From NCBI GenBank assembly GCA_021731365.1, contig JAKFXL010000029.1, positions 1 through 64,000 of the forward strand: a stretch of DNA of 64,000 nt, in the 5' to 3' direction. The stretch comes from Gammaproteobacteria bacterium (GTDB lineage Bacteria; Pseudomonadota; Gammaproteobacteria; Tenderiales; Tenderiaceae). Of the stretch, positions 43,398 to 58,886 are shown piece after piece. Every line of letters begins with the position of its first letter. Position 1 is the first letter of the stretch. The position numbers and the translations under genes were made by a program. Below the pieces are notes generated by a model, which saw only the letters and a list, made by a program, of their open reading frames with translations, did no database searches and had not been told where the DNA came from.

Positions 43398-44444
43398 ATG
43401 CCATATAACCATCATGACAAAATTCGGGCGATTGAGTGGTCGGATGCGGGATTGAACCTGCTCGATCAGCGTCTGCTGCCCAATGTTACGCAGTGGGTGC
43501 TGCTGAAGGATGCACTGGGTGTGGCGCAGGCGATTCGCGATATGGTGGTGCGTGGCGCTCCAGCCATCGGCGTCACGGCTGCTTATGGGATGGTGCTGGC
43601 GGCGCGTGATCGATATGCCTGCTCTCCTGGTGAGTGGAAAAGTGCTATTGCTGAGGATATACAGACCTTGGCGGATTCCCGCCCGACTGCGGTGAATCTA
43701 TTTTGGGCGCTGGAGCGCATGCGGCAATTTATGGAGGGGTTGAGTGGTGACCCCGTGCCCGCGATGCTGGCTGAGGCCCGACGCATCCATGAGGAAGATA
43801 TTGCCTCCAATCGGCAGATGGGTGAATTGGGTGCGGCCCTGATCGACGGGCCTTGTGCCGTCTTGACCCACTGCAATACCGGGTCACTGGCAACAGGTGG
43901 TTTTGGCACGGCCCTGGGTGTTATCCGTGCCGCGTACGGCGCTGGCCGTATTAATAGCGTGTTTGCCGATGAGACCCGTCCCTGGTTGCAGGGGGCGCGT
44001 CTGACCGCCTGGGAGCTGGTTGAGGATAATATCCCCGTAACCCTGATTACCGAGGGTGCGGCGGCAACCTTGATGAAGCAGGGCAAGGTGAAGTGGGTGA
44101 TTGTCGGCTCAGACCGTATTGCCGCCAATGGCGATGTTGCCAATAAAATCGGCACCTACTCACTGGCCGTTACGGCGCGTTACCACGGCGTTAAGTTTAT
44201 GGTGGTGGCCCCGACTTCGACGGTGGACATGAATATTGCCTGTGGCGATGACATCCCGATTGAAGAGCGGGCGGAGTCCGAGGTGTTGACACTGGCCGGG
44301 CAAAGAATAGCGCCCGAGTCGGCACGTGCCTGGAATCCATCCTTTGATGTGACCCCGGCGGAATTGGTCGACGCAATTGTCACAGAGAAGGGGGTGGTGG
44401 AGCGCCCTTCGCTGGAAAAAATGGTAGCCATGATGCGGAGTTAG
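43398..44444 (+). CDS. mtnA: S-methyl-5-thioribose-1-phosphate isomerase
   Basis: Isomerises methylthioribose 1-phosphate to the ribulose form in methionine salvage. The 348 residues have [36 protein letters not shown] with the active-site Cys, and [19 protein letters not shown] with the catalytic Asp. The chosen ATG has AGGAG 9 bases upstream; a TTG 18 bases earlier overlaps that site. It stands directly upstream of gyrA, as in Pseudomonas. Confidence 0.94.
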
Positions 44445-44582
44445 CACCATTTGATGGCGGGACAAAAAGGTGCGGCGGGGGATAGGGTTGTGGTACCATT
44501 CTTTCTTTTTTTGCGGCTCGCGGGGCAGGGTTGGCGAGGCGTGAAATCGGGCAGTTCACAGAATAAAGGCGCTTGTTAATCA

Positions 44583-47183
44583 ATGGCTGATTTTGCACAT
44601 GAAGTCCTCCCGATATCTGTCGAAGAGGAGATGAAACAGTCGTACATGGCTTATGCCATGGCGGTCATCGTTGGCCGTGCCCTCCCAGATGTACGCGACG
44701 GCTTGAAGCCAGTCCACCGACGGGTACTTTATGCCATGAACGTGCTGGGCAACGACTGGAATAAACCCTACAAAAAGTCGGCACGTATTGTCGGTGACGT
44801 CATCGGTAAATATCACCCCCATGGTGATACGGCGGTGTATGACACGATTGTCCGCATGGCCCAGACCTTCTCTCTGCGTTACATGCTGGTGGATGGCCAG
44901 GGGAACTTCGGTTCTGTTGATGGTGACTCTGCCGCTGCCATGCGGTATACCGAAATACGCATGTCCAAGATTGCCCACGAACTTCAGGCCGATCTGGAAA
45001 AAGAGACGGTTGATTTCATCCCCAACTATGATGAAACCGAGAGCGAACCGGCGGTGTTCCCTACTCGTGTCCCCAATCTGCTGATCAACGGTTCATCCGG
45101 CATCGCGGTAGGGTTGGCAACCAATATTCCACCCCATAATCTGACAGAGGTGGTGAATGGTTGTATCGCCCTGGTGGATAATCCTGATCTCGATATTGCC
45201 GGTCTGATGGAGTACATCCCGGGTCCTGACTTTCCTACGGCGGCCTTTATTAATGGTGCCAGCGGCATCCATGAGGCATACCACACCGGTCGTGGTCGTA
45301 TCTACCTGCGTGCCCGCAGTGAGATCGAGTTTGATGAGGCTAAAGACAAACAGACCATCATCATCACCGAGCTTCCATATCAGGTGAACAAGGCCAATCT
45401 GCTGGAAAAGATTGCCGAGCTGGTGAAGGAGAAAAAGGTCGAGGGCATTACCGAGCTGCGTGACGAGTCCGACAAGGACGGTATGCGGATGGTCATCGAG
45501 TTGCGCCGTGGTGAGATGGGGACCGTTGTACTGAATAATCTCTATCGCCATACCCAGCTTGAAAATGTGTTTGGTATTAATATGGTTGCCCTGATCGATG
45601 GTCAGCCCAAGCTGCTCAACTTGAAACAGATCCTGGAGGCGTTTATCCGCCACCGCCGTGAGGTGGTGATCCGGCGCACTATCTTTGATCTGCGTAAGGC
45701 GCGTGAGCGTGGCCATATCCTTGAGGGGTTGGCGGTTGCGTTGGCCAATATTGATGAGGTGATCGCCCTGATTAAGGCGGCCCCCACCTCCGCTGATGCC
45801 AAAGAGGCGATGATGGCGCGGACATGGCATGGTGACATCGTTGTTGAGATGCTGGCCCGTTCCGACGCTTCCCTCTCCCGTCCTGACGGCTTGGCGCTGG
45901 AGTTTGGTATGGTGGACGGTGGTTACCGCCTCTCTGCTGCCCAGGCCCAGGCGATTCTCGATCTGCGACTGCATCGGCTTACCGGCCTGGAGCAGGACAA
46001 AATTAAAGCGGAGTACAAGGATATATTGGATCGCATAGTGGATCTGATGGATATCCTTGCCAACTCCGGGCGTTTGATGCAGGTGATCCGTGACGAACTG
46101 ATATTGATTCGTGATGAGTATGGGGATAAGCGTCGTTCTGAAATTATCGCTAGTCGCATCAATCTGACGCTGGAAGATCTGATTTCGGAAGAGGATGTGG
46201 TGGTGACACTCTCTCATACCGGTTACGTCAAGATGCAGCCGATCTCCATGTACAGCGCGCAGAAACGCGGTGGTCGTGGCAAGGCGGCCACCAGTGTTAA
46301 GGAAGAGGATTTTGTTGACAAACTATTTGTCGCCAACACCCATGACACCATTCTCTGCTTCTCCAGTCGTGGCAAAGTCTATTGGATGAAAGTCTACGAA
46401 CTGCCGCAGGCAGGCCGTACCGCGCGTGGCAAACCGATCATTAATCTGTTGCCGCTGGAAGAGGGGGAGCGGATCAATGCCATTCTGCCAATCCGTGAAT
46501 TTGAGGCGGACAAGTTTATCTTTATGGCCACGGCCAGTGGTACGGTGAAAAAGACCCCGTTGATTGATTTCTCACGCCCACGCAGCAACGGCATCATTGC
46601 CCTTGAGCTGTTTGGTGATGACTGTCTGGTGGGTGTAGATATCACCAATGGCAGCAATGATGTGATGTTGCTCACCGATGCAGGCAAGGTGGTCCGGTTT
46701 AATGAGGAGCATGTCCGTCCCATGGGACGGACCGCACGGGGTGTCCGCGGCATCAGGTTGGGTGAAGGCCAGCGTGTTATCTCCCTGATTAATGTCAATG
46801 AAGGTGATGTGTTGACCGTCACTGAAAAAGGGTACGGCAAGCGGACAGCCATCAGTGATTACCCTGTTCATGGTCGTGGTGGCCAGGGGGTTATCTCGAT
46901 TCAGACCAATGAGCGCAACGGGCGTGTGGTGGGTGCAGCGCTTGTTATGAGTGAAGATGAGATCATGCTGATCAGTGATAACGGGACCCTGGTGCGTACC
47001 CGCGTCGAGGAGATTTCGGTGATGAGCCGAAATACTCAAGGTGTGCGCCTGATTCGTCTGGCGGATGGCGAGAGCCTGATTGGCGTTGAGCGTATCGTTG
47101 ATCCCGATGACGACGATGGTGAAACCGTCGACGAGCTGAATGAATCGAACGAACCGAACGAACCGAGTAATGCGGAAGAGTAA
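44583..47183 (+). CDS. gyrA: DNA gyrase subunit A
   Basis: Type II topoisomerase subunit that breaks and rejoins DNA. The 866 residues have catalytic Tyr122 (AMRYTEIRM), the quinolone-determining region [17 protein letters not shown] with Thr83 and Asp87, and the GyrA box AQKRGGRGK starting the C-terminal beta-pinwheel. Thr83 is also the wild-type residue in Pseudomonas aeruginosa. The C-terminal tail is acidic and ends in a short NEP repeat encoded by 9-base units. serC follows within 6 bases. Confidence 0.98.
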
Positions 47184-56785: not shown

Positions 56786-56859
56786 CGTAATAATTTTAAC
56801 TTGGCATTCTCCTTTTGCAGTTTGAGCAATAACAGTGTTATTTCAACAAGGAGAGTGGA

Positions 56860-57141
56860 ATGATTAAACATCTGGTTTTGGCTGTTACATTATTATTCGC
56901 AACGTTTACGTTATACGCCGCCGGGCCGGTTAATGTGAATACGGCAGATGCGGCAACAATCGCTAAAAACGTAACGGGTATTGGCATGGTGAAGGCTGAG
57001 GCCATTGTTAAATATCGCGAAAAAAATGGTCCTTATAAAACCGTTGATGATTTAAGCAAGGTGAGTGGTATCGGTGAGGCTACTATTAAGAAAATTAGAC
57101 CGCAGGTCACCGTATCTTCGCTGGATAAAACTAAGAAGTAA
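56860..57141 (+). CDS. ComEA-like helix-hairpin-helix DNA-binding protein
   Basis: A 93-residue exported protein with a signal peptide (HLVLAVTLLFATFTLYA) and a ComEA-type double helix-hairpin-helix: VNVNTADAATIAKNVTGIGMVKAEAIVKYREKNGPYKTVDDLSKVSGIGEATIKKIRPQ. The periplasmic family binds incoming DNA in natural transformation. The first GIG carries Met-Val-Lys, the second is complete. A strong AAGGAGAG precedes the ATG, and AATAAC-AGT-GTTATT (56828-56842) just upstream is a possible operator. Confidence 0.9.
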   Translation: MIKHLVLAVTLLFATFTLYAAGPVNVNTADAATIAKNVTGIGMVKAEAIVKYREKNGPYKTVDDLSKVSGIGEATIKKIRPQVTVSSLDKTKK

Positions 57142-57162
57142 GAAGTAGCGGGTGATAGTTGT

Positions 57163-57193
57163 AAAACGCCATGCATTGCATGGCGTTTTTTTA
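57163..57193 (+). terminator. Intrinsic terminator after comEA-like gene
   Basis: A stem of about 10-12 bp (AAAACGCCAT with ATGGCGTTTT) and a short loop, running into a T-rich tract. A-T ends make it active in either direction. Confidence 0.85.
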
Positions 57194-57216
57194 TTTTCCA
57201 CCACAAGGTTAAAACC

Positions 57217-57377
57217 ACCGGCTTTAGCCGGTCAACTTTAGTACAGCTGTTATAAGCAAGCTTGGAATAGCTGAATCACTTTCCGGCTTGTTGGTTTTGC
57301 GCGTTTTGATGGGTGTGCGTTTGACGACTTTAGTCGTCTGCACCCATCAGCGCTAACCCACCTACTTTAGTAGGTGG
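57217..57377. repeat. Three palindromes with a common TTTA loop
   Basis: Three perfect hairpins share the loop TTTA closed by C-G: ACCGGC/GCCGGT (57217-57232), GACGAC/GTCGTC (57323-57338, inside an outer GATGGGTG/CACCCATC stem at 57308-57348) and CCACCTAC/GTAGGTGG (57358-57377, followed by TAG). Stems differ in sequence but keep the same loop. Such palindromes are typical of REP/BIME units and of the ends of IS200/IS605-type elements; no transposase gene is present. The 287-base gap holds no gene. It may also mark the boundary of the polysaccharide cluster. Confidence 0.65.
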
Positions 57378-57428
57378 TAGTTCAGTTGTAGTTACTGTTT
57401 TCATATACAAGGCAGGGGTGATACAAAA

Positions 57429-58886
57429 ATGAACATTCAACCGATTATTCTCAGCGGAGGTTCCGGCACCCGATTATGGCCTCTATCTCGAGAGCACTAT
57501 CCAAAGCAGCTAATTGCCTTATACGGTAATCATAGTTTGTTACAGGAGACCCTGCTTAGGCTAAACGGGTTGGAGAAACAATCGGCAGATATTCAGATGC
57601 GTTCCCCCCTTATCGTTTCTAACGAAGAGCACCGTTTTCTCGTGGCGGAACAGCTTCGTCAGATTGGTTGCTCGTTTGAAAAAATTATTCTTGAGCCTGC
57701 TGGCCGCAATACTGCCCCCGCGTTAACACTTGCCGCTTTGGCCTCTATCAGAGACGGACAAGATCCGTTGCTACTGGTAATGCCCGCCGACCATGTCATT
57801 CAAAATGTTGATGCATTTCAGAAAACCCTGTTTGCTGGAGCGCAATTGGCTGAAAGTGATTACCTTGTAACCTTTGGTATAGTGCCTTGTTCCCCAGAGA
57901 TTGGTTACGGTTACATCATGAAAGGGGCTGCATTAAGTGGCGATGCCACTACCATTGGCCGCTTTGTTGAAAAACCATGCACCACTACGGCTGAGCAGTA
58001 CCTACAATCAGGGCAATACCTTTGGAACAGCGGTATGTTTATGATGCGCGCTTCACTCTGGCTCAAAGCGATTAATCTGTATCAACCGGTTATTGCTGCT
58101 GCCAGTAAAGCTGCTTTTGATGCTGGCAGTGAGGACGTTGATTTTTACCGTGTCGACAAACGGCTCTTCAGTGACTGCCCCAGCGACTCTATTGACTACG
58201 CTGTGATGGAGAAGATCGTTACCACTGAGGCTGACAGTGCCAATGGAATTAAGGGAGCAATGATACCGCTGAATGCCGCCTGGTCAGATGTTGGTTCGTG
58301 GACAAGTCTTTGGGAGGTGAGTCCACACGATGAGGTGGGCAATGTAGTCAAGGGGGATGTCTATTCCCTCGCCACCAAAAACAGCCTGTTGATATCCGAA
58401 CACCGCATTCTTGCCACTGCTGGGCTGGAGGATATGATCGTTATAGAGACGGCCGATGCCGTAATGGTTGCCCACAAGGATCAAGCTCAAGAGGTCAAGA
58501 AACTGGTAGAGCTGATCAAGGCCGATGGCCGCACACAGCACCAGAGTCATCGCAAGGTCTACCGTCCTTGGGGCTGTTATGAAGCGATTGACAGCGGCGA
58601 GCGCTTTCAGGTGAAACGTATCACCGTTAATCCAGGCGCTGCATTATCGCTGCAGATGCACCACCATCGCGCTGAGCACTGGGTGGTAGTCAAAGGCACA
58701 GCCAAAGTCACTGCGGGCGAACAACAGCTGCTGCTGACTGAGAACCAGTCCACCTACATCCCTATAGGCGTTAAACACCGCCTTGAAAACCCCGGCGCCA
58801 TTCCACTGGAACTCATTGAAGTGCAGTCCGGCAGTTACCTCGGTGAAGATGATATTGTCAGGTTTGAGGATGTTTATGGCCGCTAA
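57429..58886 (+). CDS. manC: Mannose-1-phosphate guanylyltransferase / mannose-6-phosphate isomerase
   Basis: Makes GDP-mannose and, in the bifunctional form, mannose 6-phosphate. The 485 residues have the nucleotidyltransferase signature ILSGGSGTRLWPLSREHYPKQ, VMPADHVI and RFVEKP, and a C-terminal cupin-type isomerase domain with QMHHHRAEHWVVVKGTAKV and VKHRLENPG. First gene of the surface-sugar cluster. Its GDP-mannose can feed the GDP-fucose genes at the right end. Confidence 0.95.
   Translation: MNIQPIILSGGSGTRLWPLSREHYPKQLIALYGNHSLLQETLLRLNGLEKQSADIQMRSPLIVSNEEHRFLVAEQLRQIGCSFEKIILEPAGRNTAPALTLAALASIRDGQDPLLLVMPADHVIQNVDAFQKTLFAGAQLAESDYLVTFGIVPCSPEIGYGYIMKGAALSGDATTIGRFVEKPCTTTAEQYLQSGQYLWNSGMFMMRASLWLKAINLYQPVIAAASKAAFDAGSEDVDFYRVDKRLFSDCPSDSIDYAVMEKIVTTEADSANGIKGAMIPLNAAWSDVGSWTSLWEVSPHDEVGNVVKGDVYSLATKNSLLISEHRILATAGLEDMIVIETADAVMVAHKDQAQEVKKLVELIKADGRTQHQSHRKVYRPWGCYEAIDSGERFQVKRITVNPGAALSLQMHHHRAEHWVVVKGTAKVTAGEQQLLLTENQSTYIPIGVKHRLENPGAIPLELIEVQSGSYLGEDDIVRFEDVYGR

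Follow-up and report, generated by a model that had tools for sequence, protein, structure and literature searches.

What element, if any, is formed by three perfect palindromes that share the loop TTTA and lie between a comEA-like gene and a manC-type gene? An earlier note on this DNA had described three such palindromes with one loop, and their coordinates bear it out: ACCGGC-TTTA-GCCGGT on the left (57217-57232), GACGAC-TTTA-GTCGTC in the middle (57323-57338) and CCACCTAC-TTTA-GTAGGTGG on the right (57358-57377). They are the only palindromes with a TTTA/TAAA loop and a perfect stem of at least 6 pairs in the window (the whole 64-kb stretch of DNA that was analysed), as compared with a chance expectation of 0.07 on average and 1 at most in 100 Markov-simulated sequences, none of which (0/100) contained a three-palindrome cluster. 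The array region also folded more stably than its shuffles (z = -6.8; 0/200 shuffles as good). As the note had further stated, one hairpin is nested in a longer stem: it is the middle one, enclosed by the pairing of 57299-57316 with 57340-57353. A fourth CTTTAG, at 57236-57241, represents a decayed second left-end hairpin. The array stems did not turn out to be compensated copies of one hairpin, as had been claimed; true stem compensation occurs between homologous elements at different loci.

The span originally delimited, 57217-57377, holds a real array but only part of the unit, which the right terminus and the position of the TTTAT target place at 57195-57385. The "GGTAG" said to follow the last hairpin was a loose description: what comes after the terminal hairpin is TAGTTCAG, which contains the right terminus of the transposon, TTCAG, and the right end as a whole reads CCACCTAC-TTTA-GTAGGTGG-TAGTTCAG (57358-57385). 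The features of the locus are as follows.

56860-57141, + strand: gene for a comEA-like helix-hairpin-helix protein, the upstream neighbour.
57163-57189, + strand: intrinsic terminator of comEA, with a T-tract to 57192 and the element inserted at its end; conserved in relatives lacking the insert.
57190-57194, + strand: target pentanucleotide TTTAT in the 5' flank, putative left-end cleavage site.
57195-57385, + strand: whole non-autonomous IS200/IS605-type element (PATE), 191 bp, both ends of which align to autonomous elements and to sibling PATEs.
57217-57232, + strand: left-end subterminal hairpin with an AAAAC-type sequence at its 5' foot; 26-28 of 28 surrounding positions are identical to tnpA-bearing elements such as L134, L091, L117 and L001.
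57233-57246, + strand: decayed second left-end hairpin, CAACTTTAGTACAG, where tnpA-bearing relatives have CAGCTTTAGCTG.
57247-57298, + strand: interior in place of tnpA, for which no match was found in tnpA-bearing relatives.
57299-57353, + strand: nested right-end stem, with helices 57299-57302/57350-57353 and 57307-57316/57340-57349 around GACGAC-TTTA-GTCGTC, as indicated by folding and covariation; a model of it (R1) finds the stem in other genomes.
57358-57377, + strand: right-end terminal hairpin, CCACCTAC-TTTA-GTAGGTGG.
57381-57385, + strand: right terminus TTCAG, putative right cleavage site; TTNAG in relatives.
57429-58886, + strand: manC-type gene (mannose-1-phosphate guanylyltransferase/mannose-6-phosphate isomerase), the downstream neighbour.

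Owing to a shared T, the ends of the element can be placed only to within 1 nt. Its junctions, TTTAT|TTTCCACC on the left and GTTCAG|TTGTAG on the right, share no inverted or direct repeat, and neither terminal inverted repeats nor a target duplication were found there. At the 5' feet of the hairpins stand AAAACC (left) and GCTAAC (right). The element is too short for a transposase: no ORF of at least 60 aa and no tnpA occur within 57195-57385, and the Y1 genes of the genome sit on other contigs. A separate observation in Thiorhodococcus drewsii (L124:2904-3600), in which tandem IS200/IS605 copies follow one another and the next left end begins directly at a TTTAG terminus, is useful for fixing the element boundary.

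The left end recurs in front of transposase genes. When the genome itself was searched with 57200-57428, left-end matches appeared at C2:142196, followed by an IS200-type tnpA, and at C49:4203, a truncated copy; the tnpA-bearing C2 element (L001) starts with a sequence that shares 88% identity with 57190-57241. The same query matched 5 of 95 related genomes, including one of another family (G031) with seven matches to the left end, six copies of which are 87-90% identical to 57190-57241. Further matches to the left end were found in G087 (L056; 89% over 36 bases) and in seven plasmids (88-90% over about 52 bases); in plasmids of Methylomagnum, Azotobacter and Pseudomonas it stands directly before an annotated IS200/IS605 tnpA, as seen in the three plasmid records inspected (L169-L171). 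L056 is a complete element consisting of left end, 142-aa TnpA and right end, and its protein matches the NCBIfam IS200/IS605 transposase (1.6e-47) as well as the solved TnpAs of ISDra2 and ISHp608. We then took the best 80 loci from a public-genome scan for relatives of this TnpA, and in most of those inspected a left end of like layout lies 5' of tnpA, made up of GGTTaAAACC, a hairpin whose apex is CTTTAG or CTTTCAG and, as a rule, another hairpin. The right end has counterparts as well, since dozens of tnpA-bearing elements have, 3' of tnpA, a TTNAG terminus preceded by the terminal hairpin AACCCACC-n-CTTTAG-n-GGTGG.

Of 88 distinct left-end insertions, 56 are immediately preceded by TTTAT, 16 by TTAAT, 7 by TTGAT and 5 by TTCAT, such that 84/88 follow TTNAT. 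ISDra2 inserts 3' of TTGAT (PMC2806898), and judged by these flanks the target rule here looks like the ISDra2 rule with a relaxed middle base.

We therefore read 57195-57385 as a transposase-free PATE/MITE derivative of an IS200/IS605-family element, mobilised in trans as a single strand, with a probability of roughly 93%; the single-strand mechanism and the mobilisation by TnpA in trans are inferred by analogy with IS608 and ISDra2. Directly observed were the anatomy, ends in common with other elements, a preferred target, two relatives that lack the insert, a sibling at a second locus and host tnpA genes that are broken. Counting against the reading are the low number of copies (two) in the genome, the damage to both IS200-type tnpA genes found and a right flank that does not align base by base with the relatives. 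PATEs, a name introduced in Haloquadratum walsbyi, are transposase-free IS200/IS605 derivatives with near-terminal palindromes (PMC3119063), and a PATE-like element has been described in Halanaerobium hydrogeniformans (PMC7290912). By the marks of this class, we found end palindromes akin to those of IS200/IS605, short length, no terminal inverted repeats or duplication, a fixed target and presence/absence among relatives. The suggestion in the earlier note of a non-autonomous IS200/IS605 derivative is thus supported by both ends, the target and the related tnpA-bearing elements, and it accounts for hairpins whose unusual arrangement might have passed for a riboswitch or a REP cluster.

In the proposed scheme, the element would have lost tnpA and retained both ends, together with the TTTA-loop hairpins located there. 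Whenever the hairpin strand is single-stranded, for example as the template for lagging-strand synthesis, a Y1 (HUH) TnpA acting in trans could bind the subterminal hairpins, and short guides at the hairpin feet would choose where to cut, at TTTAT on the left and at TTCAG on the right. Excision would then yield a single-stranded circle, which would integrate 3' of a pentanucleotide resembling TTTAT and leave the target unduplicated.

Several known systems resemble this design in part. Like the Haloquadratum and Halanaerobium PATEs, the window element is short, has no transposase or terminal inverted repeats, bears IS605-type near-terminal palindromes and made no target duplication; unlike them, it occurs in another host lineage, has two copies only, carries a nested right-end double stem and uses the target TTTAT/TTGAT. 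ISDra2 shares the subterminal hairpins and the insertion 3' of a pentanucleotide (TTGAT, as against TTTAT/TTAAT/TTGAT here), and its TnpA is akin to that of the present group (phmmer, 5e-24 to 2xm3), but it encodes tnpA and tnpB, whereas the window element has neither. IS608/ISHp608 shares the TnpA superfamily and the hairpin-plus-guide layout (structures 2vju and 2a6m), but has a tetranucleotide target, and its TnpA is no more than a remote relative of the one in the present group (4e-17).

A full IS200/IS605 element might instead have inserted at this locus and lost tnpA in place, leaving a remnant that never moved as a short element. Such losses do occur: two G031 copies (L062 and L064) are internally deleted derivatives with tnpA cut down likewise to fragments, and the genome itself holds the truncated C49 copy. 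The right end of the window element, however, is present twice in the 3.4-Mb genome, with 57298-57387 being 90% identical to C22:46655-46743, and the second copy is a 153-bp sibling (C22:46589-46741) with both ends present and the target TTGAT. Two unrelated loci of one genome with 90% right-end identity and different targets (TTTAT and TTGAT) fit the movement of a short element. The same short layout also recurs in a 192-bp PATE directly 5' of a full IS200/IS605 element (L131) and in a PATE of like design on the Methylomagnum plasmid pRS11DPr5 (L172), and these, with the C22 sibling, share a nested right end that none of the inspected tnpA-bearing elements showed. Decay in place is accordingly very improbable as the origin of the window element. 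At L131:2728-3511, the PATE and the full element stand head to tail with a few bases between them at most.

The right ends of these four elements (window, C22, L131 and L172) all contain a GGACTTTAGTCC-like hairpin nested in an outer stem. RNAalifold returned exactly this nested structure, in which both partners have changed at 7 of the 29 pairs, and the covariation score exceeded those of all 500 shuffles and of every slid control. The paired changes, which appear to keep the nested stem, are moderate evidence, as four sequences are few and the elements are related. A covariance model built from the four right ends found matches in three genomes, none in the training set (G210, G188 and G313; 8.8e-11 to 5.2e-7); inspection by eye showed them to be short elements that have the nested layout and no neighbouring tnpA. 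Tested against the same model, tnpA-bearing elements scored about 22-45 bits, through their terminal and subterminal hairpins; the nested double stem was absent from the inspected right ends of tnpA-bearing relatives, and no direct parent with a nested right end was found. Phage records and E. coli genomes yielded no match, and the specific right-end pattern gave none in viral contigs. As regards a TnpB-associated parent whose right end would supply a guide RNA, no TnpB was found in the element's own genome, and against 27 TnpB loci of the class the model gave no match better than E 0.48. Several genomes of the class and a Methylomagnum plasmid carry transposase-free IS200/IS605 derivatives with one common right-end design.

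The presence of a nested right-end stem in PATEs of several genomes is only a mildly new point, and its conservation raises the concrete question of what TnpA recognises. The nested double stem could conceivably be a distinct functional module of the PATE lineage across several families of the class, acting either as a small structured RNA or as a special structure, for TnpA docking or replication capture, that helps short elements outspread their parents, a proposal that we consider unlikely.

Three further observations concern related elements. In sister PATEs of G210 and G188 (L182, L201 and L183), the apexes have drifted to CTATGGAATTTATTCCATAG and GACGATTTTAATCGTC while the nested layout is kept. 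In G313 (L202:1081-1600), a PATE of like design adjoins regularly spaced repeats (ATTCTCCCAGCTAATTAAGTTGGGAGTGGATTGAAAC) that are CRISPR-like in look. Looser patterns retrieved IS200/IS605 elements from viral contigs, together with one PATE-like element without tnpA, of about 400 bp, on the reverse strand of an IMG/VR viral contig (L176).

At the insertion site, two genomes of the same family (G006 and G005) have comEA, its terminator and manC adjacent, without the hairpins. The spacing between terminator and manC is 17 nt and 41 nt in these genomes, respectively, and 236 nt in the window, or 45 nt once the 191-bp element is subtracted. Since the insert is missing and the comEA-manC spacer is short in both relatives, the lineage of the window most likely acquired the element where the comEA terminator ends, the right flank being too diverged for a base-exact junction. 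Terminator-like hairpins, some of them weak, precede the target in only 5/88 insertions as compared with 1% of control sites, which is too little to assert that terminators are preferred as targets.

These comparisons also bear on a cis-regulatory or small RNA in the manC leader or the comEA tail, for which the strong folding of the region and the compensatory changes in the nested stem among homologous elements might speak. DNA hairpins to which TnpA binds would be expected to show such changes just as much, however, and the array is missing between comEA and manC in related genomes, while its homologues adjoin unrelated genes. A scan of 56800-57800 found no Rfam family at gathering score, and no promoter-like site was found in 56800-57500, including none for manC from the right terminus. 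The structured RNA that had been proposed gained no positive support, and we regard an RNA origin of the array as even less probable than decay in place; the nested right-end stem, being conserved by covariation, may nonetheless act as a DNA or an RNA structure.

A search for a tnpA or RAYT gene, which the earlier note had advised, revealed four Y1 genes in the genome. The one at C22:44399 is a RAYT above the NCBIfam curated cut-off, 1.6 kb from the sibling element, and the protein encoded on C43 resembles RAYT more closely than it does IS200 TnpA. The other two, on C2 and C7, are IS200-type tnpA genes and both are broken. The C2 gene has a stop as its codon 124, immediately ahead of the tyrosine aligned with Y132, the catalytic residue, of ISDra2 TnpA; in the C7 gene a frameshift precedes this position. 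Searches of the draft assembly (83 contigs, 98.8% complete) recovered no intact IS200-type TnpA, although such a gene may lie in the unassembled part. Because both of the IS200-type genes found are broken, the PATE is probably stranded in this genome at present, short of the horizontal acquisition of a compatible TnpA; the enzyme for any movement now would have to come from outside or be encoded in the 1% that the assembly lacks. In this genome the element has outlasted the working forms of the transposases found alongside it. The C2 copy (C2:142196-142780) is otherwise a full-length IS200/IS605 element.

The genome's RAYT (TnpA-REP) brings up the remaining explanation, a REP/BIME array mobilised by that enzyme. 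The array does consist of intergenic palindromes, which like REPs are single-strand hairpins tied to a Y1 enzyme, and the RAYT gene lies near the sibling element. In REPs that belong to RAYTs, the hairpin is preceded on its 5' side by a GTAG-type tag (PMC3733652, PMC6006769). Such tags are carried by other repeats of this genome, namely GTAGCCCGGATG at 12 sites (0 in the reversed control), and the C22 RAYT lies near its own GTAG-tagged CCCGGATG repeats, which are unrelated to the array. The window element, in contrast, has no GTAG 5' of its hairpins, is a two-ended unit with asymmetric left and right IS ends and a TTTAT target common to tnpA-bearing elements, and occurs in only two copies rather than at high copy number. 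On tag, copy number and IS-type ends and layout we rejected the REP/BIME unit of the earlier note, the least credible of the origins considered. On C22, the RAYT gene (44399-44959; L004), the PATE sibling and a GTAGCCCGGATG-type REP (46589-46855; L010) all lie within 2.5 kb.
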